A stretch of 32,204 nucleotides of DNA from a virus: positions 1 to 32,204 of IMG/VR virus record IMGVR_UViG_3300025118_000079; one strand, 5' to 3'. The position numbers were made by a program, and so were the translations under genes. This document shows positions 1 through 29,637 of this stretch, in pieces; positions within the stretch are counted from its first letter, which is position 1; each line of letters begins with the position of its first letter. The notes under the pieces were generated by a model. The model had not been told where the DNA came from and ran no database searches. It worked only from the letters and a program-made list of their open reading frames with translations.

Positions 1-142
1 TACCAATCATATTAAGATTTTCAACTTGCAAAATTGTATTTTTTGCAACAGTTGAGTTATAAACACCAGCTTTCATTTTAGCAAGTATTCTATCAACATT
101 TTTTTCGGCTGTATCTTCAGCCCATTGTTTCACTTTACCCAT
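1..142 (-). CDS. Hypothetical phage protein, 3' part cut off by window edge
   Basis: Reading starts at the ATG whose complement is at 140-142 and stays open for 47 codons to the left edge, so the C-terminus is missing. A purine-rich ribosome site (AAGGAAA) lies about seven bases upstream, which supports this start. The visible part begins MGKVKQWAEDTAEKNVDRIL and is charged and probably helical, with no signal peptide. Short proteins that begin this way are common among marine T4-like phages, but I cannot name a family or function. The 200-bp non-coding stretch before it holds one copy of a repeated promoter-like element, so it is probably the first gene of its transcript. Confidence 0.75.
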   Translation of the reverse strand, partial: MGKVKQWAEDTAEKNVDRILAKMKAGVYNSTVAKNTILQVENLNMIG

Positions 143-206
143 AATGTATTTCCTTTTTCTTTCATTGTTAATATACTACTATTCTATCAAAAAAAGGCAT
201 ACATTA

Positions 207-305
207 CAAGCATTATTCCAGTTATTTTGTCCGTTAGTTTTATTATATATCAAGGGTTTTGGGGTGGGACACTTTGTACTTTTAAAATGTTCTACTTTTG
301 TTCTC
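207..305 (-). repeat. Intergenic element, copy A: 20-bp core plus upstream block, possible promoter
   Basis: The gap 143-349 shares two blocks with the gap at 7266-7335. The core at 207-226 is identical over 20 bases to 7266-7285. A second block at 285-305 matches 7315-7335 at 19 of 21 bases. Read on the minus strand, the core contains TGGAATAAT, which resembles an extended -10 box (-10 hexamer complement at 212-217). A start about 7 bases further would give a leader of roughly 63 bases before the ATG at 142. No good -35 is visible. The distance between blocks differs between copies (58 versus 29 bases). The gap also has distant inverted arms, GGGGTG at 261-266 and CACCCC at 305-310. The promoter role is inferred. 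Confidence 0.55.
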
Positions 306-349
306 ACCCCTAGGTTGTATATTATAGAATCAATATACTACTATTTATC

Positions 350-826
350 TTATGCTGTTTTGTAATTATCGTTCCAACCAAAAGCCTCTTTAACTACTGC
401 GTCCGTAAGACCTTTATAAACTTTATTTAATGATTTGTCTTTAACATTAACTAAAAGCTTCGCTTCATCAGCGTGTAATCCTTCTAGGATTTGTATAAAC
501 ATAGTTTCTTTTTTAGTTTTGGATATTTTGGTATCAGCACCTGTTACAAAGTGCCATAATCTTTTGGTTTCACTTGCAAGTAAAGTATGTTCTGTACCTG
601 CTGGTGCGTCATTTTCTTTATATGGTGGAATACCTTCTGGTAAATCCCATTTGATACTTGGATCAAATGCACCTTTTAAAATTTGTCTTAATGATACAGA
701 ATCATTTTGTTGTAATATTTCAATTTTTTTAGGTTTGTCTTTTGCATTATTTACTTTAGTCAAAATTTCACTAAGCAAGACAGCACCTGAACCTTCATAA
801 TTTAAACTTTGTGATGTTATAGGCAT
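350..826 (-). CDS. DUF6433-like phage protein
   Basis: This is a soluble 158-aa protein with no signal peptide or membrane segment. Its sequence resembles the DUF6433 family of T4-like marine phages: an N-terminal SLNYEG/LSEIL region, a central proline- and charge-rich stretch, and a C-terminal segment ending AVVKEAFGWNDNYKTA. The family has no established function that I know of. The start is supported by a very strong ribosome site (GAGGAGGG) a few bases upstream. It stands alone: a terminator hairpin separates it from the gene upstream in transcription (914-1255), and a 207-bp gap follows it. A CATAAATA sequence on the minus strand near 896-903 resembles the T4-type late promoter TATAAATA, but such sequences are common in AT-rich DNA. 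Confidence 0.7.
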   Translation of the reverse strand: MPITSQSLNYEGSGAVLLSEILTKVNNAKDKPKKIEILQQNDSVSLRQILKGAFDPSIKWDLPEGIPPYKENDAPAGTEHTLLASETKRLWHFVTGADTKISKTKKETMFIQILEGLHADEAKLLVNVKDKSLNKVYKGLTDAVVKEAFGWNDNYKTA

Positions 827-858
827 ATCGCCCTCCTCATTTTGTTATATAACTTTTA

Positions 859-896
859 AATAAGGGCGGTTTGAGTCTCCCGCTGCCGCCCTTATT
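859..896 (-). terminator. Hairpin terminator after gene 914-1255
   Basis: A perfect 11-bp inverted repeat has arms AATAAGGGCGG at 859-869 and CCGCCCTTATT at 886-896, separated by a 16-base loop. It begins 18 bases beyond the stop of the upstream gene and is followed on the minus strand by TTAAAAGTT-type sequence. The U-tract is only moderate, but this is the strongest GC-rich stem in the left part of the window. Confidence 0.8.
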
Positions 897-913
897 ATTT
901 ATGCGTGTGTTAA

Positions 914-1255
914 TTACGCACTTCTGTAAGCATACGGCGTACCGTATAGTTTTTTAATACCAGCAGCGACTATCGCTCTAGTAGGGGTTCCAAGTCTGTA
1001 AGATGTACCTCTAGCAGATTTATTTACATAAATCATATTGCCTTCAGCTCTTAAAGTATCAACCAACGCTCTAGGTGAGGTTAGGTCGAATCTGTTTCTT
1101 AAAACTTTCCAAGAAATTGGATCGCCTTTAGATAAAAGGTTCATAACCTTTCTTCGTTTTGACAATCTCTTTCTACCTCTGGTAGAGGTTCTTTTGTGTT
1201 TGCTAACTACTTTTAATTCGTCTTTTGCAAACATTTTGTTAAATAATTTAAACAT
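914..1255 (-). CDS. Small basic protein, possible winged-helix DNA-binding
   Basis: The 113-aa product is strongly basic, with an Arg/Lys-rich patch at about residues 20-37 (KRTSTRGRKRLSKRRKV). What follows (MNLLSKGDPISWKVLRNRF, then SPRALVDTLRAEGNMIYVN) looks like the helix-turn-helix and wing of a small winged-helix domain. The C-terminus ends in a tyrosine-rich YGTPYAYRSA. Proteins of this look are conserved in T4-like marine phages, but I know of no assigned role; a transcription or DNA-packaging accessory function would fit the charge. A good ribosome site (GGAGTAAATA) precedes the ATG, and a perfect-stem terminator follows the stop, so the gene seems to be transcribed as its own unit or as the last gene after the cold-shock gene. 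Confidence 0.7.
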   Translation of the reverse strand: MFKLFNKMFAKDELKVVSKHKRTSTRGRKRLSKRRKVMNLLSKGDPISWKVLRNRFDLTSPRALVDTLRAEGNMIYVNKSARGTSYRLGTPTRAIVAAGIKKLYGTPYAYRSA

Positions 1256-1355
1256 TATTTACTCCTTATTTGTATCATTAATTCAAATATTATATGTTGA
1301 TACAACAAACTATATAATATATTCCAAATTGCTTTATGGAATTCGTATAATATTG

Positions 1356-1565
1356 TTAGATGTTCTTTTGTAAATTGATAGCAGATAATCCTTTTGCGGT
1401 TTCTTCAGTATCAAATAAAATATCATCACCTTCATTTAAATCTTGCAATCCAGCGGCTCTAACTGCTGTAGAATGGATAAATACATCTTTTTCTTTGTCT
1501 TCTCTTTCAATAAACCCAAATCCTTTGGTAGGGTTAAACCATTTTACTTTTCCTTTTATACTCAT
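1356..1565 (-). CDS. csp: Cold-shock domain protein (CspA family)
   Basis: The 69-aa product is a single cold-shock domain of the usual bacterial length. It has the nucleic-acid-binding motifs RNP1 (KGFGFI, residues 14-19) and RNP2 (VFIH, residues 28-31) and the expected VKWFNPTKGFGFIE opening. Family members bind single-stranded RNA or DNA and melt RNA structure in the cytoplasm. In a phage the likely use is to help translation or antitermination of viral transcripts, though that is inferred. It follows gene 1575-2009 by nine bases. I see no missing key residue; family identity is secure, function in the phage is not. Confidence 0.95.
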   Translation of the reverse strand: MSIKGKVKWFNPTKGFGFIEREDKEKDVFIHSTAVRAAGLQDLNEGDDILFDTEETAKGLSAINLQKNI

Positions 1566-1574
1566 ATTTGTCTT

Positions 1575-2009
1575 TTACTTTTCCTTTTCTTTTTCTTTTT
1601 TTGGGAATAGATTGCTGTAATCAATTTCGACAGCATACAAACTTTTCCCCTTCTTTGTTGTCTTAATATTTTTGTCAACCCATTTATGTAATGGATGTAA
1701 CACTTTAAATTTTCTCATTAATAAAGACCGTAATCCTTCTGCAACTAATTTATAATCTTTTAAAAAATGTTCATTAGTAACATCAATACCTTCACTTGTA
1801 AATTCAACTAATAATTTAGCAGCAATATCATCACATACGTGCTGAATATAAATTTTATTATGTTGAAGTTTAATTCTTTCCTGTGTGGATGGATGGATAT
1901 TTACACCTGTTCTTTTAACTATTTCAAGTGGGAAATATAATATGTTATTTTTCTTTTTTCCTTTTTTCTTGTCTTTATCGTTATTATTATCTATTTTGTC
2001 TACCATCAT
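1575..2009 (-). CDS. Hypothetical lysine-rich phage protein
   Basis: This 144-aa protein is not recognised. It has lysine-rich low-complexity ends (KDKKKGKKK near residues 12-20 and KKEKEKEK at the C-terminus) around a central region of about 100 residues that looks folded and helical. There is no signal peptide or membrane segment. Its ATG overlaps the stop codon of the glutaredoxin gene by one base (TAATG), pointing to coupled translation. The highly basic ends suggest contact with nucleic acid, but that is only inference. A second Met directly follows the first, so the start could be one codon later. Confidence 0.7.
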   Translation of the reverse strand: MMVDKIDNNNDKDKKKGKKKNNILYFPLEIVKRTGVNIHPSTQERIKLQHNKIYIQHVCDDIAAKLLVEFTSEGIDVTNEHFLKDYKLVAEGLRSLLMRKFKVLHPLHKWVDKNIKTTKKGKSLYAVEIDYSNLFPKKEKEKEK

Positions 2010-2293
2010 TATTTATTAATTACTTCACCTTTAAAGTTAACTTTACCTTTATCAACAAAATACTCTACTAATTGATTATATCCGCCAATGACTTCTTCGT
2101 CAATTTTAATTTGTGGCATTGTTCTAACTTGTTTTCCTAATTCCTTAAATAATTCTTCTGGTGTCTTAAATTCTTTTCCATACATTTTTTCTGTATAGTT
2201 CAGGCCAAGGCGTTTTAACAACGCCTTTGCCTTATCACAATAAATACAATTGTCTTTACTAAAAACAATTAATTTAATTTGTTGTGATTTCAT
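2009..2293 (-). CDS. grx: Glutaredoxin
   Basis: The 94-aa product has a thioredoxin fold signature of the glutaredoxin type: a redox motif CIYC at residues 16-19, the cis-proline loop TMP at 58-60, and the GG pair at 70-71 in the glutathione-binding region. It would reduce disulfides using glutathione. Its natural partner in phages of this kind is the class Ia ribonucleotide reductase, which is encoded at 21.9-25.9 kb. The gene overlaps the preceding lipoprotein gene by 20 bases and the following gene by one base (TAATG). Length and motifs are complete. Confidence 0.94.
   Translation of the reverse strand: MKSQQIKLIVFSKDNCIYCDKAKALLKRLGLNYTEKMYGKEFKTPEELFKELGKQVRTMPQIKIDEEVIGGYNQLVEYFVDKGKVNFKGEVINK
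2075..2103 (-). promoter_or_regulatory. Possible sigma70-like promoter inside glutaredoxin gene
   Basis: On the minus strand TTGACG (complement 2098-2103) and TATAAT (complement 2075-2080) are separated by exactly 17 bases, an 11 of 12 match to the sigma70 consensus. It lies in coding sequence where the -10 encodes part of the conserved GGYN motif, so it may be chance. If real it would serve gene 1575-2009 and the cold-shock gene. Confidence 0.3.
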
Positions 2294-2900
2294 TTTTATT
2301 CTCTACTACTATCTCTAAATCGTTGTAGGATTTTTCTGCTAATTTCTTTAGCTCAAAAGCATCCACAACTGTAGCGATTGAATAATTGTACATTTTATTA
2401 AACTCACCTAAAGGTAATCTTAATCCAATCCACGCCCTATAATAACCATTTTTTGTCATAGTTACTTCTTGAGCAAAGATTTCATAACCTCTTACTTGAG
2501 TTTGTTTGATATGATTTACAAGAGCAGATTCAACATCCGTAATTATACTTTTCTGATTAGTTTTACCTAATTCAGTTATGAATATTTTAATCTTCTTATT
2601 CATCTCCCCCTTGATAATATCGGCAAGTTCTGCTTTTGCAACCATTTTAGCCTTGTCTATTGCAAGTTCTAATGATGGAGAAACAGCAGTTCCTGTACCA
2701 AAAATACATTCTTTATTTTTAGTTTTTCCGAACCTTTTTTTGCCACACGCCTTTTTCTCAGCGATGTCAGCCATATACCAAGCTGGAACTTTAGTAACGG
2801 TTTTACCGCCTTCTTTTTTTATATTATAACTGTTACTTGAACAATTACTCAATAAAAGACCTAAAGTTAATATCATTATGTATTTCAATAACATATTCAT
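2274..2900 (-). CDS. LPP20-family outer-membrane lipoprotein
   Basis: The 208-aa protein starts with a lipoprotein signal (hydrophobic residues 4-18, lipobox LSNC with the lipidated Cys at 20). The mature part carries the pattern FGTGTAVSPSLELAIDKAKM followed by AKAELAD, typical of the LPP20 lipoprotein family, and a later AWIGLRLPLGEFNKM strand-helix segment. It should sit in the periplasmic leaflet of the outer membrane or at the surface. Function in the family is poorly known; LPP20-like proteins often occur with envelope assembly genes. A ribosome site (AAGGAG) lies upstream and a perfect-consensus promoter lies in the gene before it. A phage-encoded LPP20 protein fits the cluster of envelope proteins that follows. 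Confidence 0.8.
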   Translation of the reverse strand: MNMLLKYIMILTLGLLLSNCSSNSYNIKKEGGKTVTKVPAWYMADIAEKKACGKKRFGKTKNKECIFGTGTAVSPSLELAIDKAKMVAKAELADIIKGEMNKKIKIFITELGKTNQKSIITDVESALVNHIKQTQVRGYEIFAQEVTMTKNGYYRAWIGLRLPLGEFNKMYNYSIATVVDAFELKKLAEKSYNDLEIVVENKNEITTN

Positions 2901-3064
2901 TATTTTTTAGTCTCCTTCACCTTATTATACATATTATAAACTAATTGCTTTGTTTTGTCAACAAGCTGAGTCTTCTCAATTGTTGTTGTAATAGGAACAT
3001 ACGAAAAAGCAATCAAAATCCATACAATCCCTAATGTAAATAGTGTTTTTATCAAACTTAACAT
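2900..3064 (-). CDS. 54-aa single-span membrane protein
   Basis: This short gene reads MLSLIKTLFTLGIVWILIAF, a clear membrane segment at about residues 3-24, followed by a polar, lysine-rich tail ending KVKETKK. Both ends are fixed by one-base TAATG overlaps with its neighbours: its ATG shares a base with the stop of the 184-aa gene, and its stop shares a base with the start of the LPP20 gene. That arrangement is strong evidence that it is translated. The tail might lie in the periplasm or cytoplasm; topology is uncertain. It is not recognised. A consensus promoter for the downstream genes is embedded in its coding sequence. Confidence 0.72.
   Translation of the reverse strand: MLSLIKTLFTLGIVWILIAFSYVPITTTIEKTQLVDKTKQLVYNMYNKVKETKK
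2933..2961 (-). promoter_or_regulatory. Perfect sigma70-consensus promoter inside the 54-aa gene
   Basis: Minus-strand TTGACA (complement 2956-2961) and TATAAT (complement 2933-2938) are separated by exactly 17 bases, a 12 of 12 match. The expected start is near 2926, about 26 bases before the LPP20 start codon, and the AAGGAG ribosome site lies between. It would let the host polymerase transcribe LPP20, glutaredoxin and the genes beyond separately from the rest of the operon. Confidence 0.72.
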
Positions 3065-3618
3065 TATCTAATTACCTCCCATTTACCTGTTGGTGTTAAA
3101 CACACGGTTCCTGGTCTTTTAAAAAGACTATCAGGTTTTGCATATTTTCTGCAATATAGAGGTGCGTTTATATCTCTATAATAGAACTCGGCAAATAACT
3201 CCCAGTAACCTGGTTTCTTTGCCTTCTCTAATTCAATTTGTTTTTTTAATTTTTCAATTTCTTCATTTTTAGTAACACCGTGTTTTGTATCAGCACAATG
3301 TAATACTTCTTTTTTAGTTATGGTATCGCCTTCTTGTTTTATAACAACAGTAACAAAGCACCATTGTCCGTCTGGTGTAACCCAACGTTCTTTAACATCA
3401 CTTTTTAATACGTTCTCATCATCATTGGTCATTTTAATAAGTTCAACTTCGTATTTTTCTATTCCTGTATCAACTTGTATTGTGTCTGTTTTTTTAAATA
3501 TATCATCCTTTTTATTTAAATCACAATCAACACAAGCGTGGCCTTTTGTAGAAAAAAATATAAAAAATAATACAATCATTATTCCTGTTATCCAATAAAA
3601 ATATCTATCTGGTCTCAT
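3064..3618 (-). CDS. Exported or membrane-anchored Cys-containing protein
   Basis: The 184-aa protein begins with basic residues and a strong hydrophobic segment (about residues 8-24, WITGIMIVLFFIFFS). It is then either cleaved or anchored, with CVDCD just after. The periplasmic part has a motif VTPDGQWCFVTVV in the middle, a short charged helix (EEIEKLKKQIELEKAKK), and ends GTVCLTPTGKWEVIR. That ending resembles the end of the neighbouring lipoprotein (GVACILPDGRVMIKEL). Several cysteines suggest disulfides, which the exported thioredoxin-like protein at 10.6 kb could handle. The family is not recognised. An inner-membrane spanin role was considered but the coil is short. The stop overlaps the next ATG by one base. 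Confidence 0.7.
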   Translation of the reverse strand: MRPDRYFYWITGIMIVLFFIFFSTKGHACVDCDLNKKDDIFKKTDTIQVDTGIEKYEVELIKMTNDDENVLKSDVKERWVTPDGQWCFVTVVIKQEGDTITKKEVLHCADTKHGVTKNEEIEKLKKQIELEKAKKPGYWELFAEFYYRDINAPLYCRKYAKPDSLFKRPGTVCLTPTGKWEVIR

Positions 3619-3619
3619 T

Positions 3620-4102
3620 TTAAAGCTCTTTAATCATTACTCGTCCATCTGGCAATATGCAAGCAACTCCCTTGTTTGTATTTCTTACAGGTCCACTTGA
3701 AAAGACAGCAACTGGCCAAGACGGTGTTATATTAATCGTACTATCAAAACTTCTACATTTAATTGGACCTTCGTACCAAGTTCTTGTAGTTTTAATACTT
3801 CCTGAATTGTTTGTGTTTGGATTAAACCAATTTGTTATATTCGGTTCATTTGGTGCTCCTATTAAATGGTCTACAAAATATTTCTTATGAGTATTAAAAT
3901 CATCATTCCATACTGCGTCAGCACCTACAACTGCTCCAATAGAAGCACAAGCGGCAATCACATATGGATCATTAATTACACCTGCACAAGTACCACCAGC
4001 CGTTACTGCACCGATACTAGAACCTGATGTATCAATTGCGGCTTGTTTAACTGCACAATTTGTTAAAAATAAAAAACTAATTAAAAGTAATATTTTTTGC
4101 AC
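3620..4102 (-). CDS. Exported lipoprotein with glycine-rich N-terminal region
   Basis: The 160-aa product has a lipoprotein signal with lipobox LTNC (lipidated Cys at residue 16). Next comes a Gly/Ala-rich stretch (about 28-62, including GAVTAGGTCAGV and ASIGAVVGADAV) like the glycine-zipper segments of some outer-membrane lipoproteins. The rest is probably beta-rich and ends CILPDGRVMIKEL, which resembles the end of the next gene's product. The start is a GTG, chosen because a good GGAG ribosome site lies eight bases upstream and the signal begins there; the gene overlaps the previous one by 26 bases. Function unknown; likely outer membrane. Confidence 0.75.
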   Translation of the reverse strand: MQKILLLISFLFLTNCAVKQAAIDTSGSSIGAVTAGGTCAGVINDPYVIAACASIGAVVGADAVWNDDFNTHKKYFVDHLIGAPNEPNITNWFNPNTNNSGSIKTTRTWYEGPIKCRSFDSTINITPSWPVAVFSSGPVRNTNKGVACILPDGRVMIKEL

Positions 4103-4454
4103 TACTAACTCCTGATGGAGAAGAATCTTTTTTAGATTTAATCACAGACTTTTTTTCTCTTTCTTCATCTTCTTCTCGTTTTTGTTTCATCCAATATGGT
4201 TCTATACCTAACACATCCCAATTATACTGTTCGGGTCCTGTTGGATATTGATACATCTTAATTAAATTTTTGAAATTTATACTTAAATGATTATAAGCAT
4301 TAGGTTTTGCTTCTTTTGCTTTTGCATGGTCTTGTAAGTATTTAATTCTATTAACGAATTGTTCCTTACCTTTATATTTTTTAAACTTTGAGAGTTTTAA
4401 ATCTTTTATTTCCTCAACTTTAAAATCTTCAAATATTTGTTCTTTTGTTTGCAC
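4077..4454 (-). CDS. Hypothetical charged cytoplasmic protein
   Basis: This 125-aa protein is highly charged, with no signal peptide or membrane segment. Its start is a GTG, supported by a GGAGG ribosome site seven bases upstream and by a consensus promoter that ends just before it. The central part contains YQYPTGPEQYNWDVLGIEPY, and the C-terminal 40 residues are Lys/Glu/Ser-rich and probably disordered. It is the first gene after the promoter at 4476-4504, so it heads a transcript that continues into the exported proteins. The family is not recognised. Confidence 0.65.
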   Translation of the reverse strand: MQTKEQIFEDFKVEEIKDLKLSKFKKYKGKEQFVNRIKYLQDHAKAKEAKPNAYNHLSINFKNLIKMYQYPTGPEQYNWDVLGIEPYWMKQKREEDEEREKKSVIKSKKDSSPSGVSSAKNITFN

Positions 4455-4475
4455 TTATTCCTCCACATTATAGCT

Positions 4476-4504
4476 ATTATCGCATAATTTATTAGTTTTG
4501 TCAA
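4476..4504 (-). promoter_or_regulatory. Strong sigma70-like promoter with extended -10
   Basis: Minus-strand TTGACA (complement 4499-4504) is followed after exactly 17 bases by GATAAT (complement 4476-4481), with TGC just before it, which also gives an extended -10. The match is 11 of 12 plus the TG. It lies in the 86-bp gap between the genes at 4541-4747 and 4077-4454, with a start expected near 4469, just before a GGAGG ribosome site. It is the best-placed promoter in the window and probably drives the run of envelope genes to the left. Confidence 0.85.
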
Positions 4505-4540
4505 CCCTAAAAAAGTCAATGAAATCAACATTTTTTAAGT

Positions 4541-4747
4541 TTAACTTGTAAAATCCATACCGTTTTTTCTTATTTTATCACATATTGTCGGTCCATCAAC
4601 GGACTTTATTACATAAAAATCTTCGGTATTATCTACAACATATTTTATTATGTTGTTTTCTTTAAACCAAGTTTCTGCTCTAGCAGTTATTGGTCGGATT
4701 AAACTAGTGCCATCATTGGCACTAGTATAAGTAAAATCACCAGACAT
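4541..4747 (-). CDS. Hypothetical 68-aa protein
   Basis: The product starts MSGDFTYTSANDG and has no signal or membrane segment. An open frame extends 13 codons further upstream, but the ATG at 4747 shares one base with the preceding gene's stop (TAATG), as at many junctions here, so this is the preferred start. The body reads as a mix of strands and helices with ENNIIKYVVDNTEDFYVIKS and a C-terminal GPTICDKIRKNGMDFTS. The family is not recognised. Its stop is followed by the promoter of the next transcript, so it seems to be the last gene of the upstream unit. Confidence 0.62.
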   Translation of the reverse strand: MSGDFTYTSANDGTSLIRPITARAETWFKENNIIKYVVDNTEDFYVIKSVDGPTICDKIRKNGMDFTS

Positions 4748-4956
4748 TATTGTATCCTTACAAATAATGCTTTGATTTGTTTCCAATTGTTGAGTAATTG
4801 CTTTTTGCCATCAGCCCAACCTCTTTTCTGAAATTCTATTGTCTTTTGTTTCTCAATAGAAAACCAGTTTGTTATAGCGTCTGCTGTACTTTTAGCATCC
4901 GCATTAGCTGCACTTGTAAATAATACAAGAGCAAGCATTGGTAATAGTTTTTTCAT
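4747..4956 (-). CDS. 69-aa exported protein
   Basis: A textbook signal peptide (MKKLLPMLALVLFTSAANA, cleavage expected after residue 19) precedes about 50 mature residues that are Lys/Trp-rich and probably helical (TADAITNWFSIEKQKTIEFQ and beyond). The mature protein should be periplasmic. It is small, basic and amphipathic, so it could act on the membrane or cell wall, but I recognise no family. It lies one base after the membrane protein at 4958-5122 and overlaps the following ATG by one base. Confidence 0.72.
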   Translation of the reverse strand: MKKLLPMLALVLFTSAANADAKSTADAITNWFSIEKQKTIEFQKRGWADGKKQLLNNWKQIKALFVRIQ

Positions 4957-4957
4957 A

Positions 4958-5122
4958 CTATTTTCCTCCCTTATCTTTTATCTTTTTTATCATACTATCA
5001 CAAATATCCATCATTTTTTTAGTGTGGTATTTCATTGATATTATAATTTCTTTTGAATCGCCAATTGTAGCGATTGCATATCCTAATAATAGGATAATAA
5101 TTACTAATAAAGTCATTTCCAT
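4958..5122 (-). CDS. 54-aa single-span membrane protein
   Basis: The product begins MEMTLLVIIILLLGYAIATI, a membrane segment at about residues 3-20, followed by a basic tail ending KKIKDKGGK. A longer frame starts 12 codons upstream but would overlap the previous gene by 35 bases. The ATG at 5122 starts one base after that gene's stop and has GGAGG about 12 bases upstream. The family is not recognised. It is one of a row of small membrane proteins. Confidence 0.65.
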   Translation of the reverse strand: MEMTLLVIIILLLGYAIATIGDSKEIIISMKYHTKKMMDICDSMIKKIKDKGGK

Positions 5123-5123
5123 A

Positions 5124-5408
5124 TTACGGCGAACCTCCCCATCCAAATACATTAGCAAGTAAAATTAATAGTATCATCGCTGGTATCACTATACTCAATG
5201 GCCAAAAATCTAAAAACTCTAAAATTGCTTCTTTAGTTGTATATTTTTTGTTTCTCATAATTTGTCTTTTAATTTCCATAACTAAATTGTAAAGTGGTTC
5301 ACCTTTTTGAAAATTAGGAAAATCCAACTTATTTAAAAGTTTAATTTGATTGTATGCTGATTGAATTGTTTTTTTCTTTATATCAACATTTATAGTTTTT
5401 GTTTTCAT
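5124..5408 (-). CDS. 94-aa protein with C-terminal membrane segment
   Basis: About 65 residues of charged, helical sequence (starting MKTKTINVDIKKKTIQSAYN) precede one hydrophobic span near the C-terminus (about residues 70-88, LSIVIPAMILLILLANVFGW). This is a tail-anchored arrangement with the soluble part probably in the cytoplasm. The region TTKEAILEFLDFWPLS resembles a short amphipathic helix leading into the membrane. It overlaps the previous gene's stop by one base (TAATG). The family is not recognised. Confidence 0.65.
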   Translation of the reverse strand: MKTKTINVDIKKKTIQSAYNQIKLLNKLDFPNFQKGEPLYNLVMEIKRQIMRNKKYTTKEAILEFLDFWPLSIVIPAMILLILLANVFGWGGSP

Positions 5409-5566
5409 TAAAATATTTTTATTATAATTATTGTTTGCATGATTAACAAAATAATTGGAAGTATAGTTCTAATTAATTCCATTGTATGATTATATTTGTC
5501 TAAAAATCTTTCCAACTTATTTCTCTTACTTTGTTTCTTCATATGTTCTGAATAAAAATCACTCAT
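5408..5566 (-). CDS. 52-aa tail-anchored membrane protein
   Basis: The short frame begins MSDFYSEHMKKQSKRNKLER and ends in a strong hydrophobic stretch (about residues 32-52, RTILPIILLIMQTIIIIKIF). It is bounded on both sides by one-base TAATG overlaps (5566 and 5408), the same coupling seen throughout the cluster, which is the main reason to accept it. The N-terminus is very basic and should stay in the cytoplasm. No family is recognised. Confidence 0.7.
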   Translation of the reverse strand: MSDFYSEHMKKQSKRNKLERFLDKYNHTMELIRTILPIILLIMQTIIIIKIF

Positions 5567-5862
5567 TATGCTCTATACCCACTTCCATATTTTCTTTCAT
5601 ATATAGCAAAACTATCTGCAAATTCTTTATGTACAAATGCCCAAGGTCTATCATAATTAGGTTTTGATTTACCTCTATATCTAAATCTTAAAGGTGAAAC
5701 CTTTTTAGAATATTGATATAAAAGTTTTAACCACGCCATCGGTATCCCTTTTGCAAGTGATAATTCATTTTTATGGGATGGATATAATCTAATAAGTTCA
5801 TCACCCATTACTTTCAATTTTTTGTAAGTTCCACTTACCATAATTTTATCTGCGTTCAACAT
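5566..5862 (-). CDS. Hypothetical basic 98-aa protein
   Basis: A soluble, basic protein without signal or membrane segment. It reads as helical (GTYKKLKVMGDELIRLYPSH) followed by a region rich in Arg, Tyr and Lys (VSPLRFRYRGKSKPNYDRPW). The C-terminus, FADSFAIYERKYGSGYRA, also looks helical. It sits between membrane proteins with one-base overlaps on both sides. I do not recognise the family and propose no function. Confidence 0.65.
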   Translation of the reverse strand: MLNADKIMVSGTYKKLKVMGDELIRLYPSHKNELSLAKGIPMAWLKLLYQYSKKVSPLRFRYRGKSKPNYDRPWAFVHKEFADSFAIYERKYGSGYRA

Positions 5863-6095
5863 TATTTACCTAAACTCATTTCATTTTCTAATTGTAACAA
5901 TGTATCAATTTTAGAATCTTCAGGTTCTTCTAAAGGTAGTTCCATTTGTGTAGGTTCTACTAATTTATATTTACCTAAAGGATTTAATGCTTCTTCAATA
6001 TTTTCAAGTCTAGTTATTCTTTGTTCTAACTTGTCCACAATTTTATATAAGTTTTTTTTATCTTCTTGTAGTTCTTCAATTTGTTTTGTACTCAT
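5862..6095 (-). CDS. 77-aa coiled-coil protein
   Basis: Residues 3-37 form a clear heptad coiled coil (including KKNLYKIVDKLEQRITRLEN). A proline- and glutamate-rich section (EPTQMELPLEEPEDS) and a short acidic helix follow. There is no signal peptide. The segment QMELPLEEPEDS resembles the short linear beta-clamp-binding motifs found in DNA-replication partners (QxLxLF-like), but the match is loose. It is coupled on both sides by TAATG junctions. The family is not recognised. Confidence 0.66.
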   Translation of the reverse strand: MSTKQIEELQEDKKNLYKIVDKLEQRITRLENIEEALNPLGKYKLVEPTQMELPLEEPEDSKIDTLLQLENEMSLGK

Positions 6096-6268
6096 TATTT
6101 TACTCCTCCTTGTAAGATTATGCTAATAAACATTGAACTCACACCCATAATCATATATGTAAATCCAAGTAACCATTGGTCTGTTTCTACAGCACCAGTA
6201 GCGCCAACTAATAACAATACTCCTAATACAGAAAATATTGTCATCATAATTTCTTTAAAATTTGTCAT
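6095..6268 (-). CDS. 57-aa double-span membrane protein
   Basis: The frame begins MTNFKEIMMTIFSVLGVLLL and contains two hydrophobic segments, at about residues 8-27 and 33-52, joined by a short loop AVETDQW. This predicts a small hairpin in the inner membrane, with both ends on the same side. It is bounded by TAATG overlaps at 6268 and 6095, and the ribosome site of the next gene (AAGGAGGAG) lies in its last codons. Size and double span recall small holins or antiholins, but many phage membrane proteins look like this and no lysis gene is nearby. Confidence 0.7.
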   Translation of the reverse strand: MTNFKEIMMTIFSVLGVLLLVGATGAVETDQWLLGFTYMIMGVSSMFISIILQGGVK

Positions 6269-6774
6269 TAAAATGGTATCCCTTCATCTTTTATAGGTTT
6301 GCTACTATCAACAATTTCTTTCAAATCGCCTAAAGGATCCATTTCTTTTTCTTCTTCTTCTTTTAAAGAAAGTCCTACAGCAACTGCATTATCAACTGCC
6401 GATACAACTTCACCTTTGTCATTAATAACATCGGTTTCTGAAACAAGAGAATCTATTTCAACATCTCCATTTTCAACAGCATTTTCTAAGCCGTCATATT
6501 CATCATATACAACTTTACCAATAAATTCAGTTTTCCCTGAATCTGAATAGTTAGCGTCAACCATATAGGTTTCAACTCCATCTTTCATTTCTGTAAGGTC
6601 TTTATTGATTTTATCATACTCAATTCCACAATCACTTAATTTAGTGTCTGCTTCATCTTTATCTTTTGCCAAAACATCCTGTTCTATGCAAAGTGTATAG
6701 TAAGTTTTCTTTCTATAAAGATTTTTACCTATATCCTCTTTAAATGGATATACATCTGTTTGTTTTATACTCAT
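6268..6774 (-). CDS. Hypothetical acidic 168-aa protein
   Basis: The protein starts MSIKQTDVYPFKEDIGKNLY and has no signal or membrane segment. The first 80 residues look folded. The second half is very acidic and Val/Asp/Glu-rich, with a run of glutamates (EEEEKE), and ends KPIKDEGIPF. The acidity might mimic nucleic acid or bind a basic host protein, but this is speculation. It overlaps the preceding gene by four bases (ATGA) and the next by one base. Confidence 0.65.
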   Translation of the reverse strand: MSIKQTDVYPFKEDIGKNLYRKKTYYTLCIEQDVLAKDKDEADTKLSDCGIEYDKINKDLTEMKDGVETYMVDANYSDSGKTEFIGKVVYDEYDGLENAVENGDVEIDSLVSETDVINDKGEVVSAVDNAVAVGLSLKEEEEKEMDPLGDLKEIVDSSKPIKDEGIPF

Positions 6775-7214
6775 AGCGTTTTTTCTCCTTTTTTATATTT
6801 GTTTGTTAATTCTGTATTATAGTCTTTTTTAAAGAATTGTCTTCCATTAAATAATTGTCCATAGTCATTATATAAACTCATAAAATCATCTTCTTTTGAA
6901 TCTAAATCGTATTCGTCTCCGAAAGTCCAATAATATTCATCTCCGAATACTATTTTTAATTCTGTCTTACCTGTAAAATTTTCACCTTTTTCAACATAAT
7001 TCTTATCAAAATAAGCTTTCATTTCAGGGAATTTAGATTCTAATTTTTTCTTATTAACTAATGATATATTCATATTTCTATAGATAGTAGAATATGAATA
7101 AAAATATGGTTCTGAAACAGATTCGTCATCTGTATATTCTCTTCCATATACAAGATTCATAGTATTTTTAGATTGTTCTTTTAACAATTTCATATCTGAA
7201 TTTTCAATTTTCAT
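6771..7214 (-). CDS. Hypothetical 147-aa protein, first gene after the long gap
   Basis: The frame is open from a TTG at 7268, but the likely start is the ATG at 7214 (MKIENSDMKLLKEQ), because the bases at 7266-7285 belong to the repeated promoter-like element and a transcript starting there would begin near 7264. No strong ribosome site precedes either choice, so the start is uncertain. The protein is rich in Tyr, Asp and Lys with segments KFPEMKAYFDKNY and FGDEYYWTFGDEYDLDSKED, soluble and acidic. The family is not recognised. It heads the long leftward run of coupled genes. Confidence 0.62.
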   Translation of the reverse strand: MKIENSDMKLLKEQSKNTMNLVYGREYTDDESVSEPYFYSYSTIYRNMNISLVNKKKLESKFPEMKAYFDKNYVEKGENFTGKTELKIVFGDEYYWTFGDEYDLDSKEDDFMSLYNDYGQLFNGRQFFKKDYNTELTNKYKKGEKTL

Positions 7215-7265
7215 AGTGTTTTTTTCAATTTCTACTGCTATCTTATCAGTTTTACCTGAAGTTTG

Positions 7266-7335
7266 CAAGCATTATTCCAGTTATTCCATCGCATAAACAC
7301 TAGGTTTTTTGGATAAATGTTCTTATTTTGTTCTC
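7266..7335 (-). repeat. Intergenic element, copy B: 20-bp core plus upstream block, possible promoter
   Basis: The core at 7266-7285 is identical over 20 bases to 207-226, and 7315-7335 matches 285-305 at 19 of 21 positions. On the minus strand the core gives TGGAATAAT (complement 7271-7279), an extended -10-like sequence. A start near 7264 would give a leader of about 50 bases before the ATG at 7214, similar to copy A. The two copies occupy the two largest gaps of the window, each directly before a gene run, which supports a promoter or regulatory role. Confidence 0.58.
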
Positions 7336-7340
7336 TTTTT

Positions 7341-7366
7341 CAATAATTTTTGCCGAAAAATTGTTG
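7341..7366. other. AT-rich hairpin in the long intergenic region
   Basis: Arms CAATAATTTTT (7341-7351) and AAAAATTGTTG (7356-7366) pair over 11 positions around a GCCG loop, with one G-T pair. On the minus strand that pair becomes a C-A mismatch. It lies between the glycosyltransferase gene and element copy B. It could end transcription coming from the right, although no clean U-tract follows on the minus strand, or it could be part of a larger folded leader. Confidence 0.5.
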
Positions 7367-7386
7367 CTATGTCTAGGGTATTTAAT

Positions 7387-7480
7387 GAATCGCACTTGAT
7401 TCGTCTATTTTAAACACACATAGCCGCCTCCTACCACGGATAGAAGTATCACTTGATAGTTCGTACTGCGTCTATTTTTT
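7387..7480 (-). ncRNA. Candidate structured RNA with two related hairpins
   Basis: On the minus strand the sequence AAATAGAC occurs twice (complement near 7403-7410 and 7470-7477), each time followed by a small hairpin with an AAGT loop. One is GAATC-AAGTGC-GATTC (complement 7387-7402); the other is TATC-AAGT-GATA (complement 7447-7458). Between them lies a GC-richer stretch with a strong ribosome-site-like GTAGGAGGCGG, then ATG, two codons and a stop. No gene covers this region. It could be an untranslated RNA, a leader with a minimal peptide, or remnants of a tandem duplication. The strand is assigned from the neighbouring genes. Confidence 0.35.
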
Positions 7481-7501
7481 AGAAATGGTTGATTTTACTA
7501 G

Positions 7502-8197
7502 TTATTTCCAGTAGTCTTTAATCCACTCTCCACTCTCATATTTGATAGCATAGTCTGGATTAGGGTGTCCGTGAAACACACATATTTTAGCATCCTTTTT
7601 TCTAGGATGTTCTTTAGGTTTATACTTTTGATATTGTTTGGGTTTACCTCTTGTCGGCCATTTAAAAGAATATGTCCAATCATCTGGTAAGAATTGTGTT
7701 TGTTTATGTCTAAACATTAAATCAGTTATCATATTTTGGTCACCGTGTAAAGCGTCAATCTCTTTTCTATTTTTCATATACGATTCAAATATATGTGAAT
7801 GGTGTTTTAAATTATATCTTAAAACACTCGTATTGATTGTACTAGTAGGTTGACCAAAATCTCTTATAACGCAAAAATCATCTGGTTGGTATTGTTTAAA
7901 AAAATCATCTAAACTATCTATAACAACTACATCTAAATCCATATATAATATATTACCTTCTATGCCTAGTTCAGGATTATATAAATGTACTTTATTCCAC
8001 CAAGTCTTTAATTGAGGTTCTGGTATTTTTATAGTTTTAATTGCTGGATTAAATGGGTCTTCTAAATTATCTGTTAAACAATAGAAATCAAAAGGTATTG
8101 ATATGTTCCTTTTACACATACTATAAAGTGTGTTAGGATACTTTACTTTATATTTGTCTCCCGAATATACACAAATAACATTATTTTTTGGCGTCAT
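7502..8197 (-). CDS. Glycosyltransferase, DxD type (GT8-like)
   Basis: The 231-aa protein has the GT-A pattern: an N-terminal NVICVYSGDKYKVKYPNTL strand-helix, the metal and nucleotide-sugar motif DLD at residues 87-89 (ILYMDLDVVVID), and a late LHGDQNMI segment typical of GT8-type enzymes that use a retaining mechanism. It should transfer a sugar from a nucleotide donor in the cytoplasm. It is the last gene of the glycan cassette; after it comes the long non-coding region. It overlaps the previous gene by 17 bases. The acceptor is unknown. Confidence 0.8.
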   Translation of the reverse strand: MTPKNNVICVYSGDKYKVKYPNTLYSMCKRNISIPFDFYCLTDNLEDPFNPAIKTIKIPEPQLKTWWNKVHLYNPELGIEGNILYMDLDVVVIDSLDDFFKQYQPDDFCVIRDFGQPTSTINTSVLRYNLKHHSHIFESYMKNRKEIDALHGDQNMITDLMFRHKQTQFLPDDWTYSFKWPTRGKPKQYQKYKPKEHPRKKDAKICVFHGHPNPDYAIKYESGEWIKDYWK

Positions 8198-8999
8198 ATT
8201 GTTCCTTTAAGGTTCTATATGCTATACCATTTTCTATTTCTTTTATTGTAAATTGATGTTCAGCCATCCATTTCATCCATTCATCTACAGTTTTTCTTCC
8301 TGGTTTTAAAGGTTTCTCTACAAACTTTAATTCTCTACTTGATACAGGCCAAGCTACATTTTTTGCGTCTGCAATTACAGGTACATAATTTAAAATTGCG
8401 TCAATTGAAGCCAAACTCATATTAGTTACCAAACAATGGCAACCTTTTAAGTCTTCTAAAAGATTTCTATCCCACCATTCATTTCCTGGTCTAGGTTTAT
8501 TTCTTATTTTAATAGGTCTATCTGTATATTTTCTTACTTCTTCACCCACTTGTTTTATCCAATCTTCCTGGGACATACCATTAATATGGAAAGTAACTGT
8601 TGGTGATGATGGACATAACAATATATGATTTGTATTTGTAGTCCAACCATTAAATCTGACATTAATACCTTTATGTTCTAATTCTCTTAATCTAATACCT
8701 TTACCTACTTTACCTTTTATGCTATGAATACCACCTTTAACTATTCTAAAATATGTTTTATCATAATCATGGATTTCAGGTTCTGGATATCTAGTAATTT
8801 GTTGAGTTAAATAACCTACATCAACATACCAGTATTCTTCCTTCTTCTCAATACACTTTCTAATCTCATTAATATTTCTACCTGCTAATCCCCAAAAAAA
8901 ATGTATGTTCTTATCTTCATCTTGCCAACCCTTTTTAATAGCAGGCCATATTTGATGAGATAGACATTTTTGCCAATCCATTGTATGTGTTATAATCAT
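8181..8999 (-). CDS. Glycosyltransferase-like protein (GT-B or capsule type)
   Basis: This 272-aa protein has a C-terminal domain with the order: strand HILLCPSSPTVTF, helix, TDRPIKIRNKPRPG, then LKGCHCLVTNMSLASIDAIL and a final basic segment. This is the pattern of GT-B-type capsule or Kdo-like transferases where the sugar donor binds between domains. It is a clear paralogue of the gene at 16583-17485: both share TDR-(P/K)I--R-K, a (V/I)EKP(L/I)-P-R segment, a QFT-x-x-(E/D) helix and an AYR ending. The left member lacks part of the N-terminal region seen in the other. It overlaps the previous gene by four bases (ATGA). Confidence 0.65.
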   Translation of the reverse strand: MIITHTMDWQKCLSHQIWPAIKKGWQDEDKNIHFFWGLAGRNINEIRKCIEKKEEYWYVDVGYLTQQITRYPEPEIHDYDKTYFRIVKGGIHSIKGKVGKGIRLRELEHKGINVRFNGWTTNTNHILLCPSSPTVTFHINGMSQEDWIKQVGEEVRKYTDRPIKIRNKPRPGNEWWDRNLLEDLKGCHCLVTNMSLASIDAILNYVPVIADAKNVAWPVSSRELKFVEKPLKPGRKTVDEWMKWMAEHQFTIKEIENGIAYRTLKEQYDAKK

Positions 9000-9670
9000 A
9001 AGTCTATTTTAGTTAAATCCTCATATATGTTAAACCATTCATCTGAATAATCACAATCTTTATAATCTTTAAAATATGGACCACCCAAAGTAAAATGAAC
9101 ATTTTTTGCCTCTGGATTATAATCATATTCATCTACTAACCAATTCCACTCTAAAGGTAATGCTCCTATTTGATGGTCATTATGTAACCATTTAAATTGA
9201 TGTAATTCTAAACCACTTTTGGTATTTACATATTCAGGAGTTAATGTTCTACATTGTTTGTTATTAATTAGCATAAAAGATGACCAATTCTTTTTCTCAA
9301 ATGTTTGGTTTACAGCACCTCTAAATTTGATACTTGTTTTTGGTTCGTAATTATGCTGACAACACATTACAGCATATTTTTCTTCAGCTAATTTAAACAC
9401 TTCGTTTATATCATTTCTAACCATCATATCACAATCCATAAATAAAGACCACCCCTTATAATCACTTAAATATGGAACTAAAAATCTGCTAAATGCAAAT
9501 TCTGTAGATTGATTTTTCTGTTTCTGTCTTTGAAATGGAGTATTTCTTAAACCGCTTAAAGCTACTGGTATAATAGATACTGGCTTGCTTGCATATTTTC
9601 TAATACTTTCAGCCAGAACATAATAGGCAATCTTTTCACCTTCATCATATCCAATAAAAACCTTATTCAT
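8996..9670 (-). CDS. Glycosyltransferase with DCD motif
   Basis: The 224-aa protein starts [20 protein letters not shown], has the motif DCD at residues 79-81 ([14 protein letters not shown]), then [31 protein letters not shown] and [16 protein letters not shown]. This is a GT-A protein of the GT8-like kind found in marine phages and bacteria. It is a paralogue of the gene at 18172-18990, with the same motifs in the same order. The recipient sugar is unknown. It overlaps the groES gene by eight bases and the next gene by four. Confidence 0.82.
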
Positions 9671-9965
9671 ATGTACCGATTATATCACTTTCTTTCATTA
9701 TAGTATATTCTACTTGATTAACTTTTATTTCACTACCTGCATATCTACCAAATAAAACTTTGTCACCAACTTTAACATCCATTGGAATTCTTTTTCCATC
9801 TTCAGTTTTCGCTCCTTTACCTATAGCAACAACTGTACCTTCTTGTGGTTTTTCTTTGGCTACATCAGCAATTATAATTCCACCTTTAGTTGTTTCTTCT
9901 ACATCCATTGATTTAATTAATACCCTATTATGCAAAGGTTCAAAATCTAATTTATCTTTTGTCAT
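9663..9965 (-). CDS. groES: Co-chaperonin GroES
   Basis: The 100-aa product matches GroES along its whole length: the [20 protein letters not shown] opening with the mobile loop that binds GroEL, the GTVVAIGKG segment, [18 protein letters not shown] and the final [14 protein letters not shown]. It caps the host GroEL ring; no groEL is in this window. T4 uses gp31 for this job, which is distant in sequence, so a recognisable GroES here points to acquisition from a bacterium. It sits between glycosyltransferase and small unknown genes rather than near structural genes. Identity is secure. Confidence 0.95.
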
Positions 9966-9974
9966 ATAATTTAC

Positions 9975-10232
9975 CTACTTTATATCTGTTCTAACAATAT
10001 GTTTTCTTAAAGCTCTTACCAATCGTTCAACATTATCTATAATATCAATTAAAGTTTTACTGGTTATATAATTTTTTTGCTCTTGCAATTTATCATATTC
10101 CCTTAAAGGGATTGTAACCGTTCTTTGAATTGCTGACTCATTTTCATATGTCAATGCGTGTGCTTCATCTTGTGGTTGCCCATTCGCTTCAACACCAAAA
10201 TCTGAACCTGTACCTTCTAGGTCTCTAATCAT
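9975..10232 (-). CDS. Hypothetical 85-aa protein
   Basis: The N-terminal 35 residues are polar and probably disordered (MIRDLEGTGSDFGVEANGQP). The rest is helical (REYDKLQEQKNYITSKTLID, then VERLVRALRKHIVRTDIK) and may form a short coiled coil. There is no signal or membrane segment. It overlaps the cupin gene's stop by four bases and ends nine bases before the groES start. The family is not recognised. Confidence 0.62.
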   Translation of the reverse strand: MIRDLEGTGSDFGVEANGQPQDEAHALTYENESAIQRTVTIPLREYDKLQEQKNYITSKTLIDIIDNVERLVRALRKHIVRTDIK

Positions 10233-10576
10233 TTTATTTTCCTTCCTACTGACTCTCTAACTATATCGTTATGGTCAAATTTTGCCCAATATAATTCAAA
10301 AGCTACACCATCTTCTAATCCTTCAAACTGGTGGAACTCTCCAGGTCTCACTTGGGTAAATTCACCTGCATTTAAAATTGTTTCATCAACTAAATCATAA
10401 TCATTTTTCCATACTCTTACAATCAATTTACCTGACTCAACAAAAAATCCATTCCATTTATATTTGTGTTTATGTTTGGAACATTGGATTCCTTTTTTAA
10501 ATTCTATTCTATGAAATTCTAACACTCCATTGGCGTGTATTAATTCTGTTGAACCCCATATTTTTCCTGATTTCAT
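10229..10576 (-). CDS. Cupin-fold sugar isomerase-like protein
   Basis: The 115-aa product is one cupin beta barrel. The first cupin motif is seen as CSKHKHKYKWNGFFVESGKL (metal-binding His-x-His around residues 34-36 and a downstream Glu), and the second as VRPGEFHQFEGL with its His near 82. Single-domain cupins of this size in glycan loci often resemble mannose-6-phosphate isomerase or sugar-nucleotide epimerase domains. The place between glycan genes fits, but the substrate cannot be told. Four-base overlaps on both sides show it is part of the operon. Confidence 0.78.
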   Translation of the reverse strand: MKSGKIWGSTELIHANGVLEFHRIEFKKGIQCSKHKHKYKWNGFFVESGKLIVRVWKNDYDLVDETILNAGEFTQVRPGEFHQFEGLEDGVAFELYWAKFDHNDIVRESVGRKIK

Positions 10577-10911
10577 TTTATTATCTCCTTTAAATCTTCA
10601 TAAAACGATTCTTTATCATAATAACCAGCAATTCTTGCTAATTCTTTTCTACCATTCCATACAATAAATGTTGGCGTTCCTCTAATAGGTTTAATTCTTC
10701 CTTCTTTGTATGCTTCTTTAAACCATTCAGGTTGTTTATATAAATTAATAATAATTAAAGGTAACTCTTTATTATCATAATCAACTGCTACCTCTTTCAA
10801 AAATTTTTGACATATACCACACATAGGGTTATGTCCCATTAATAGTTCTAAAGCATTAGCTTGAACATTAAAAAATAAAATAAAAATAAATGTTAATAAT
10901 ATTCTAATCAT
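10573..10911 (-). CDS. Exported thioredoxin-like protein
   Basis: The 112-aa protein begins with a signal peptide (MIRILLTFIFILFFNVQANA, cleavage expected after residue 20). The mature part is a small thioredoxin fold with CGIC at residues 31-34 and the cis-proline loop GTPTF (78-82). It would act in the periplasm as a thiol reductase or oxidase, like SoxW or DsbE-type proteins. Possible clients in this window are the exported Cys-containing proteins (3064-3618 and 27485-29635). It overlaps neighbours by four bases on each side. Confidence 0.83.
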   Translation of the reverse strand: MIRILLTFIFILFFNVQANALELLMGHNPMCGICQKFLKEVAVDYDNKELPLIIINLYKQPEWFKEAYKEGRIKPIRGTPTFIVWNGRKELARIAGYYDKESFYEDLKEIIK

Positions 10912-11603
10912 ATTCTAGCCTCTGGACTCTTCCCTTTTATTTTTCTTTGACCTTTTGTATGGTCATATATTGGTCCTAATACTGACCTTGCTTGTACATG
11001 GCCAACCTTATCATCACCAATATTATAATTCTTAACTCCTCTTTTCTCAAATCTTTTTCTAACTACATCCCAAATATATGAATCGTGTTGTTCTTTTTCT
11101 TTGTATATTAAATCATGGTTATACATATCTTGCATTTCTTTAGCAAATTCTATCGTTAAAGGGTGCATTAAATTAAAATATAAAAAACCACACTCACTAT
11201 AATTTGGTCTTCCTAAATAAGTCATCATACAATCGTCCCTATGTATATGTTTTTTTACCCAATCTTCATCAATAGATTTATAAAATACACTATCAGCGTC
11301 TATACAAATTAAACCATCAGCGTCTTCTGTCATTATAGAATATGTATAAGAATATACTTTATAACAAAATCTTACACCATCTTTTATAAAATCATTTGTT
11401 CTTTCTTCCCAGCTTGTATATTTGTATCTATCTTTATTTCTATCTACAAATGCTTTACATTGTGGTATCTTATCAAATAAATCTTTATCTTCATTATATA
11501 CTTTTAATTCAAAAGGCCATTTATAAGTCTTTTCAAATCTATGAGCATAACCTTTGTATAAATTATTATTCCAGGTCGTTATCGTCTTTATCTTCATCTT
11601 CAT
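10908..11603 (-). CDS. Glycosyltransferase with DAD motif
   Basis: The product (231 aa from the ATG at 11603; the frame is open 12 codons further) starts MKMKIKTITTWNNNLYKGYA, and the metal-binding DAD is at about residues 102-104 (GLICIDADSVFYKS). Later segments NYSECGFLYFNLMHPLT and EQHDSYIWDVV fit a GT-A glycosyltransferase of the kind found in phage and bacterial glycan loci. The start is not certain; the Met two codons later is also possible. Any of these starts overlaps the FkbM gene upstream by at least 32 bases. Confidence 0.72.
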   Translation of the reverse strand: MKMKIKTITTWNNNLYKGYAHRFEKTYKWPFELKVYNEDKDLFDKIPQCKAFVDRNKDRYKYTSWEERTNDFIKDGVRFCYKVYSYTYSIMTEDADGLICIDADSVFYKSIDEDWVKKHIHRDDCMMTYLGRPNYSECGFLYFNLMHPLTIEFAKEMQDMYNHDLIYKEKEQHDSYIWDVVRKRFEKRGVKNYNIGDDKVGHVQARSVLGPIYDHTKGQRKIKGKSPEARI

Positions 11604-13120: not shown

Positions 13121-13123
13121 TTT

Positions 13124-16506: not shown

Positions 16507-16586
16507 TTATATATAAATGGATCCTTTTTATCGTATTTTCTTTTTTTAAAGTAATTCTTAATCCAATTTATAAATTTTTTTATCAT
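16503..16586 (-). CDS. 27-aa basic micropeptide gene
   Basis: A short frame reads MIKKFINWIKNYFKKRKYDK and ends DPFIYK. It has a strong ribosome site (GGAGGAG) directly upstream and ATGA overlaps with both neighbours, the glycosyltransferase (16583-17485) and the carbamoyltransferase (15100-16506). That fit is unlikely by chance. The peptide is strongly basic, amphipathic and aromatic, so it may bind membrane or act as a translation-coupling leader. No family is recognised. Confidence 0.6.
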   Translation of the reverse strand: MIKKFINWIKNYFKKRKYDKKDPFIYK

Positions 16587-29635: not shown

Positions 29636-29637
29636 TT

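Follow-up and report, generated by a model that had tools for sequence, protein, structure and literature searches.

A candidate early envelope operon of pelagimyophages with a promoter embedded in a small membrane-peptide gene

We analyzed a virus record of 32,204 bases (IMG/VR IMGVR_UViG_3300025118_000079; the whole stretch is hereafter called the window), in which an initial annotation had pointed out a dense cluster of small envelope proteins at positions 2274–6268. The genes under study are all encoded by the minus strand, and over positions 7268–2009 they follow one another, 5' to 3', in the order g20, g19, g18, g17 and so on to g6 and g5. The new observation reported here is a consensus sigma-70 promoter embedded in the gene of a peptide of ~50 amino acids (aa), g7, ahead of the gene of an LPP20-family lipoprotein, g6; both genes belong to a core that recurs in viral contigs. 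With somewhat less than even confidence, we interpret the cluster as an early-type host-envelope operon of pelagimyophages, in which the conserved core is preceded by a series of exchangeable genes for small membrane proteins. Pelagimyophages infect SAR11, the most abundant bacteria of the ocean.

Conservation of the core and reshuffling of the upstream genes

Relatives in viral contigs numbered 384 for g6 (208 aa), 115 for g14 (94 aa), 190 for g15 (52 aa) and 11 for g18 (57 aa); all 384 stretches encoding g6 were confirmed and 80 of them were kept, and this count for g6 alone indicates that the module is widespread. Pairwise ratios of nonsynonymous to synonymous differences (pN/pS) were below 1 in all ten families tested (range 0.36–0.71), so that the frames behave like translated genes; g13, g16 and g17 had too few relatives for this calculation. 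The initial annotation had made its proposal depend on conservation of the small frames, and those that were searched have 11 to 190 viral-contig relatives and are under purifying selection.

Gene order was compared in 94 testable loci, that is, loci with enough flanking sequence that had been fetched by searches with g6, g14, g15 or g18 and hence do not form a random sample of phages. The core g9-g8-g7-g6-g5, which encodes a 17-kDa-antigen-like lipoprotein, an exported cysteine-rich protein, a ~50-aa membrane peptide, the LPP20-family lipoprotein and a glutaredoxin, was complete in 88 of these loci, and the cultured pelagiphages Mosig and HTVC008M show the same core order with extra small genes interspersed. 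In Melnitz, a phage of OM43, and in its relatives, a transmembrane (TM) frame of ~45–59 aa lies upstream of the gene of an LPP20-like lipoprotein, and many Melnitz relatives carry a SleB-type hydrolase gene after the LPP20 gene in place of the glutaredoxin gene. Such an exported SleB-type cell-wall hydrolase is encoded behind the LPP20 gene at positions 12525–13052 of locus L084 and in relatives such as L261–L325; the Melnitz paper (PMC9004378) nevertheless recognizes no lysin-like gene besides gp67.

The small genes of the block upstream of the core vary in order and identity between loci. Genes g14 and g15 lie within 6.5 kb of g6 in 46 and 26 of the 94 loci, respectively; g14 sits between g9 and g8 in one locus (L164), and g15 also occurs on contigs without any core gene. 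As judged from gene order, the cluster is a fixed core with a reshuffled upstream block of apparently swappable small genes. The comparison with other pelagimyophages that had been proposed in the initial annotation thus upholds the order of the core and does not uphold a single block, since the upstream genes are reshuffled.

Five loci (L125, L136, L139, L230 and L253) form a divergent clade in which g14 (or g15) shortly precedes g9-g8-g7-g6-g5. The origin of L253 from a gammaproteobacterial single-cell genome (SCGC AAA168-P09) hints at another host class. A scan of bacterial genomes returned four contigs, all with the phage gene order of the module, and these look like phage contigs in metagenome-assembled genomes (MAGs) or in a single-cell genome. 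The MAGs into which module-bearing phage contigs (L250, L251 and L252) were binned bear the names Porticoccaceae, Planctomycetota and Rickettsiales; because the contigs are from phages, these labels tell little about the host.

Within positions 2274–6268, all frames that had been claimed were confirmed. Of the 13 minus-strand genes there, nine code for envelope proteins, namely two lipoproteins, two exported proteins (69 aa and 184 aa, the latter exported or anchored) and five small membrane proteins. One hydropathy rule classified 8/13 genes inside these positions and 6/37 genes elsewhere in the window as membrane or exported genes (Fisher test, p = 0.0035), and the inside count rises to 9/13 when the 69-aa signal-peptide protein g12 is added. 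A scan statistic that lets the cluster fall anywhere gave p = 0.057. Gene density by itself is only moderately unusual, and conservation is the stronger evidence for the cluster. The one-base overlaps (TAATG-type) that had been described occur at eight junctions (2900, 3064, 4747, 5408, 5566, 5862, 6095 and 6268), whereas elsewhere there are one-base gaps (3619, 4957 and 5123), a 26-base overlap of g9 and g10 (4077–4102) and an 86-base gap (4455–4540) upstream of g10. The statement that the frames of 52, 54 and 57 aa fall below annotation cut-offs was partly right, but equivalents of 38–57 aa are annotated in Mosig and HTVC008M.

No phage record was matched by megablast of the first 12 kb of the window, PADLOC had no match for ten proteins, and Rfam had none in the window. 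Scans of Pfam and PHROGs with single window proteins gave nothing usable, and the families emerged only through alignments.

Promoters and the timing of core expression

The g7 gene (2900..3064, minus strand) encodes a bitopic membrane peptide of 54 aa with an N-terminal TM segment and a tail that is predicted to be periplasmic and amphipathic. A TM-bearing open reading frame of 43–59 aa stands immediately 5' of g6 in 125 of 126 loci, the pN/pS is 0.59 (0.69 for the wider g7 set), and the relatives have only ~25–30 residues beyond the TM segment. The coding sequence of g7 contains, at a distance of 32 bases from the start of g6, P_B (2961–2933, minus strand), a perfect sigma-70-type promoter with the pattern TTGACA-17-TATAAT, which is the sole perfect (12/12) sigma-70 site in positions 1–16600 of the window. 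Sites matching at least 11 of 12 positions were found before g6 in 83% of 72 distinct loci, compared with 1.6% of random windows, and the spacer was always 17 bases long. In g7, codons for [L/V/I]-Asp overlap the –35 element, and the –10 element starts at a Tyr codon. In each of the 74 distinct g7 frames that have the motif, these codons read NTT-GAC and TAT, compared with background frequencies of 28% for GAC and 72% for TAT, although the g7 sequences share ancestry and the 74 are therefore not independent events. In divergent sequences the g7 motif and the promoter are missing together, so that selection on the promoter may account for some of the residue conservation in the g7 tail. Kept at the codon level, P_B is a clean case of one sequence serving two purposes within a compact phage genome.

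A further sigma-70-type promoter, P_A (4504–4476, minus strand; TTGACA-17-GATAAT, 11/12, with TG before the –10 element), lies in the 86-base gap before g10. Among loci with g10, sites of at least 11/12 were present in 45% (1.6% of random windows) and sites of at least 10/12 in 82% (5.7%). The whole window contains a single copy of the T4-type late motif TATAAATA (27631–27638) against 11 expected copies, and none is near the core; this strong depletion looks as if the early region avoids late-promoter look-alikes. For calibration, TATAAATA in Mosig stands shortly before virion genes (for example, at 28405, 50552, 82259, 84874, 89816, 101449 and 106683), and the region of 117.8–133.5 kb that contains the module has none. 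Because the sigma-70 promoters are conserved and the late motif is absent, we read the core as probably early-expressed, a timing for which the sequence gives good support. A limited literature search found no transcript data for these phages; the transcriptome paper that it returned concerns other pelagiphages. Of the early envelope-altering programme proposed in the initial annotation, the conserved envelope-directed gene set, the sigma-70 promoters and the lack of the late motif are in favor, whereas the small genes occur in unrelated contexts as well.

Proteins of the core

The g6 gene (2274..2900, minus strand) encodes a lipoprotein of 208 aa with the lipobox LSNC, the predicted lipidated residue being Cys20, and has a pN/pS of 0.36. 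The PF02169 (LPP20) profile matched 31 of 53 g6 family members at E ≤ 0.1 (best 2.5e-4) and did not match the window g6 protein itself, so that its LPP20 membership rests on its relatives. The lipobox is present in 83 of 86 distinct sequences, and Cys20 is invariant in the family alignment (A1). In E. coli, though not necessarily in SAR11, the lack of Asp after the lipidated Cys favors sorting to the outer membrane. In the scored g6 relatives this residue is A, S or T and never Asp, and g6 is thus predicted to be an outer-membrane lipoprotein.

Alignments for the structure models were built without rows from annotated records. The AlphaFold2 model of g6 is of low confidence (mean predicted local distance difference test score, pLDDT, 55.5) and has a predicted core of a β-strand, a long α-helix and two β-strands. 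Compared by VIA-align, this low-confidence model and H. pylori Lpp20 (5ok8_B) gave a Z of 7.5 over 108/115 residues at 3.1 Å, with 5ok8 on top of the list and Tip-alpha and dodecins below. Values of Z below 8 can reflect a common arrangement, and the LPP20 assignment therefore leans mostly on the sequence evidence. Foldseek with the g6 model returned nothing below E 1e-3, and sequence searches of solved structures with the g6 and g9 profiles found no match. Adjoining g6 in 92 of the 94 testable loci, the last core gene, g5 (2009..2293, minus strand), overlaps g6 by 20 bases and encodes a glutaredoxin, a thioredoxin-fold sequence with CxxC whose homologues in Mosig and HTVC008M are annotated as glutaredoxin.

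The lipoprotein g9 (3620..4102, minus strand; 160 aa) has the lipobox LTNC with Cys16 and is related to the 17-kDa surface antigen. The PF16998 (17kDa_Anti_2) profile matched 48 of 57 g9 family members at E ≤ 0.1 (best 3.3e-5); the window protein matched at E 0.041, under the curated cut-off. The family has the conserved ending C...GTAC..PDGRW, and the homologue in HTVC008M is annotated as 'putative outer membrane protein / surface antigen'. Its neighbor g8 (3064..3618, minus strand; 184 aa) is an exported or N-terminally anchored protein with four invariant cysteines (C87, C108, C156 and C173) and a 17-kDa-antigen-like C-terminus. PF16998 matches in the g8 family were weak (7/63 members), and the g8 profile aligned with the g9 family with a probability of 61% (hhalign, E 8e-5), which points to a weak relation between the g8 C-terminus and g9. 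The g8 model (pLDDT 71.6; predicted template modeling score 0.28) had no credible Foldseek match and no PDB fold match. At some distance, positions 10573–10911 (minus strand) encode a thioredoxin-like protein with a signal peptide and a CGIC motif (Thioredoxin_2, 6e-9), which may serve the disulfides of the cysteine-rich g8 and g9.

Possible function of the module

If the cluster is an early envelope operon, host RNA polymerase would transcribe the core from the strong sites P_A and P_B soon after infection, and P_B would give the g6 and glutaredoxin genes their own transcription start. The lipoproteins g6 and g9 would receive their lipid and be delivered to the outer membrane on its periplasmic face, g8 and g12 would be exported, and g8 and g9 would probably be disulfide-bonded. 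The peptide g7 would span the inner membrane, extend its tail into the periplasm and work together with g6, a partnership suggested by the persistence of the gene pair across divergent phages. Early synthesis, the outer-membrane lipoproteins and the paired g7 peptide would together put the core into the envelope of a cell that is infected but still alive. The core would then be the constant portion, complemented in the inner membrane by variable components, the swappable tail-anchored peptides. The most likely purpose, although here we lean slightly towards doubt, would be to change the envelope of the infected cell so that further phages fail to adsorb or to deliver DNA, i.e. superinfection exclusion. 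By analogy, the best precedent for the core is T5 Llp, an early periplasmic phage lipoprotein that blocks further infection (PMC9586334). Because g6 is a homologue of neither Llp nor Cor, is kept in phages of several hosts and does not lie beside a receptor-binding gene, a general change that impedes adsorption or the delivery of DNA appears more likely than a receptor-specific plug.

Several points weigh against the exclusion proposal and its early timing. The module is not known to confer an exclusion phenotype. Its LPP20 protein shows strong conservation and is common to phages whose hosts belong to different classes; by contrast, lipoproteins that block receptors, such as Llp and Cor, are small and specific to one receptor, and the gene of Llp adjoins the receptor-binding gene (PMC9586334). 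The g6 protein matches no known exclusion family outside its signal peptide, and its structural model is of low confidence. Moreover, HTVC008M, the divergent clade and the Melnitz lineage lack a P_B-type promoter in g7, so that the reading of early timing does not extend to them.

Compared with known systems, g6 resembles H. pylori Lpp20 (LPP20, PF02169; FlgP and FlgT share its SHS2-like fold) in the profile match of its family and in lipoprotein nature, and its low-confidence model suggests a similar core. Unlike Lpp20, g6 belongs to lytic phages, and its gene neighbors specify a membrane peptide and a glutaredoxin. In FlgP, a β-hairpin insert between the SHS2 helix and the second strand correlates with ring formation (PMC12222027), whereas the low-confidence g6 model shows no such insert. 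Likewise, g9 is similar to the 17-kDa surface antigen in its profile match and lipoprotein nature, but it is phage-borne and lies beside the possibly related g8. Unlike T5 Llp and Cor, g6 has a larger LPP20 domain and is paired with a membrane peptide; the window g6 has no Llp/Cor homology, and one relative matches phrog_1119 (Cor) at E 0.053 over residues 1–32 only. The hypervariable region of pelagimyophages described by Zaragoza-Solas et al. in 2020 (PMC7029224), for which coinfection avoidance was mentioned on the basis of other genes, belongs to the same phage group, but the core described here is conserved; their paper contains neither the term lipoprotein nor the term surface antigen.

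The juxtaposition of genes for a small inner-membrane protein and an outer-membrane lipoprotein, as in the Rz/Rz1 spanins, raises the alternative of a lysis module in which g7 and g6 would join or disrupt the membranes at lysis and the other small TM proteins would serve as holin or antiholin. The exported SleB-type hydrolase directly after g6 in many Melnitz relatives would suit this alternative, as would the report that gp67 is the sole lysin-like gene of Melnitz, for which curli pores were proposed in lysis control (PMC9004378). However, the early-type promoter and the absence of a late promoter fit lysis poorly, the g7 tail is short, unlike the long periplasmic coiled coil of an Rz-type partner, and g6 is apparently a globular LPP20 domain. 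Spanin profiles did not match the g6 family beyond the signal peptide and linker, the Rz-like matches being limited to residues 3–61 in one relative and 1–25 in HTVC008M. We consider lysis unlikely. The same low standing is given to envelope maintenance, in which the proteins would preserve the outer membrane or periplasm as the phage diverts the synthesis of the cell but would not keep other phages out. A housekeeping task would suit the strong conservation and broad host range, LPP20/FlgP-type proteins associate with the outer membrane, and Lpp20 of H. pylori has been detected together with FapH, a protector of the outer-membrane barrier (PMC11756786); the conserved cysteines, the glutaredoxin and the exported thioredoxin-like protein at 10573–10911 also agree with it. 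At the level of sequence, maintenance and exclusion look alike, but maintenance leaves the reshuffled tail-anchored peptides unexplained.

Far less probable is that the proteins are accessories of the phage curli (type VIII secretion system) pore, CsgG and its partners, encoded at 27485–31780. Both sets include outer-membrane lipoproteins in the same genome, and CsgG matches at E 1e-49, but they lie ~20 kb apart in the window, and the core is present in Mosig, where CsgG has no match, which argues that the module is independent of curli; this role was accordingly dropped. Nutrient capture, which had been suggested in the initial annotation, has in its favor the envelope location of the proteins and nothing else, and we regard it as the least probable of all, given that no transporter, porin or binding-protein family was detected in any member.

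A wider formulation of the early envelope operon, which we put forward as doubtful, is an undescribed early envelope-takeover system of T4-like phages of SAR11 and OM43 (and perhaps of a marine gammaproteobacterium), in which an inner-membrane peptide of the g7 type would team up with an LPP20-family outer-membrane lipoprotein to protect infected cells. In this formulation, the coding sequence of the peptide would, among SAR11 phages, also serve as the promoter of the lipoprotein. In a limited literature search, the bacterial envelope families were not previously named in these phages, apart from the surface-antigen label in HTVC008M. Since the module is present in the cultured phages Mosig, HTVC008M and Melnitz, exclusion, lysis and maintenance can be tested directly.

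Upstream genes and other observations

The first gene behind P_A, g10 (4077..4454, minus strand; 125 aa), encodes a predicted cytoplasmic protein with a pN/pS of 0.62 and has homologues close to the core in 76 of the 94 loci. Another predicted cytoplasmic protein, g11 (4541..4747, minus strand; 68 aa; pN/pS 0.46), is near the core in 55 loci, and its start is likely the ATG at 4747 rather than an upstream TTG. The exported 69-aa protein g12 (4747..4956, minus strand; pN/pS 0.71) has a signal peptide and a conserved W..GK.Q motif, with 62 tblastn relatives within the fetched loci.

Among the genes farther upstream, g13 (4958..5122, minus strand; 54 aa), with an N-terminal TM segment, belongs to the variable block and has few relatives (67% identity in L109 and 64% in L251). 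Two apparently swappable cassettes follow that encode tail-anchored membrane proteins: g14 (5124..5408, minus strand; 94 aa; pN/pS 0.40), which is variable in position, and g15 (5408..5566, minus strand; 52 aa; pN/pS 0.41). Neither had a tblastn match in phage records, even with the g15 core as query. The g15 family occurs on L168, L172, L182, L200 and L231 near genes that appear, by eye, to encode a T4-type DNA polymerase, clamp and clamp loader; in L168, g15 is 87% identical and no other window gene is shared. The variable block also includes g16 (98 aa) and g17 (77 aa), which are predicted to be cytoplasmic and have few relatives (5566..6095, minus strand), and g18 (6095..6268, minus strand; 57 aa; pN/pS 0.59), a two-TM hairpin protein.

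Elsewhere in the window, positions 27485–31780 (minus strand) encode, besides CsgG, a curlin-repeat-like protein and a FecR-like protein of 719 aa, the latter two recognized by position and by eye; CsgG is also matched in HTVC008M and Melnitz. A piece of CsgG 43% identical to that of the window is encoded at positions 256–951 of OR851715.1, an odd record of 1,499 bases named Salmonella phage S.Kent 1-2-1. By eye, positions 9663–9965 (minus strand) encode a bacterial-type GroES-like co-chaperonin, which was present in only four of the first set of loci.

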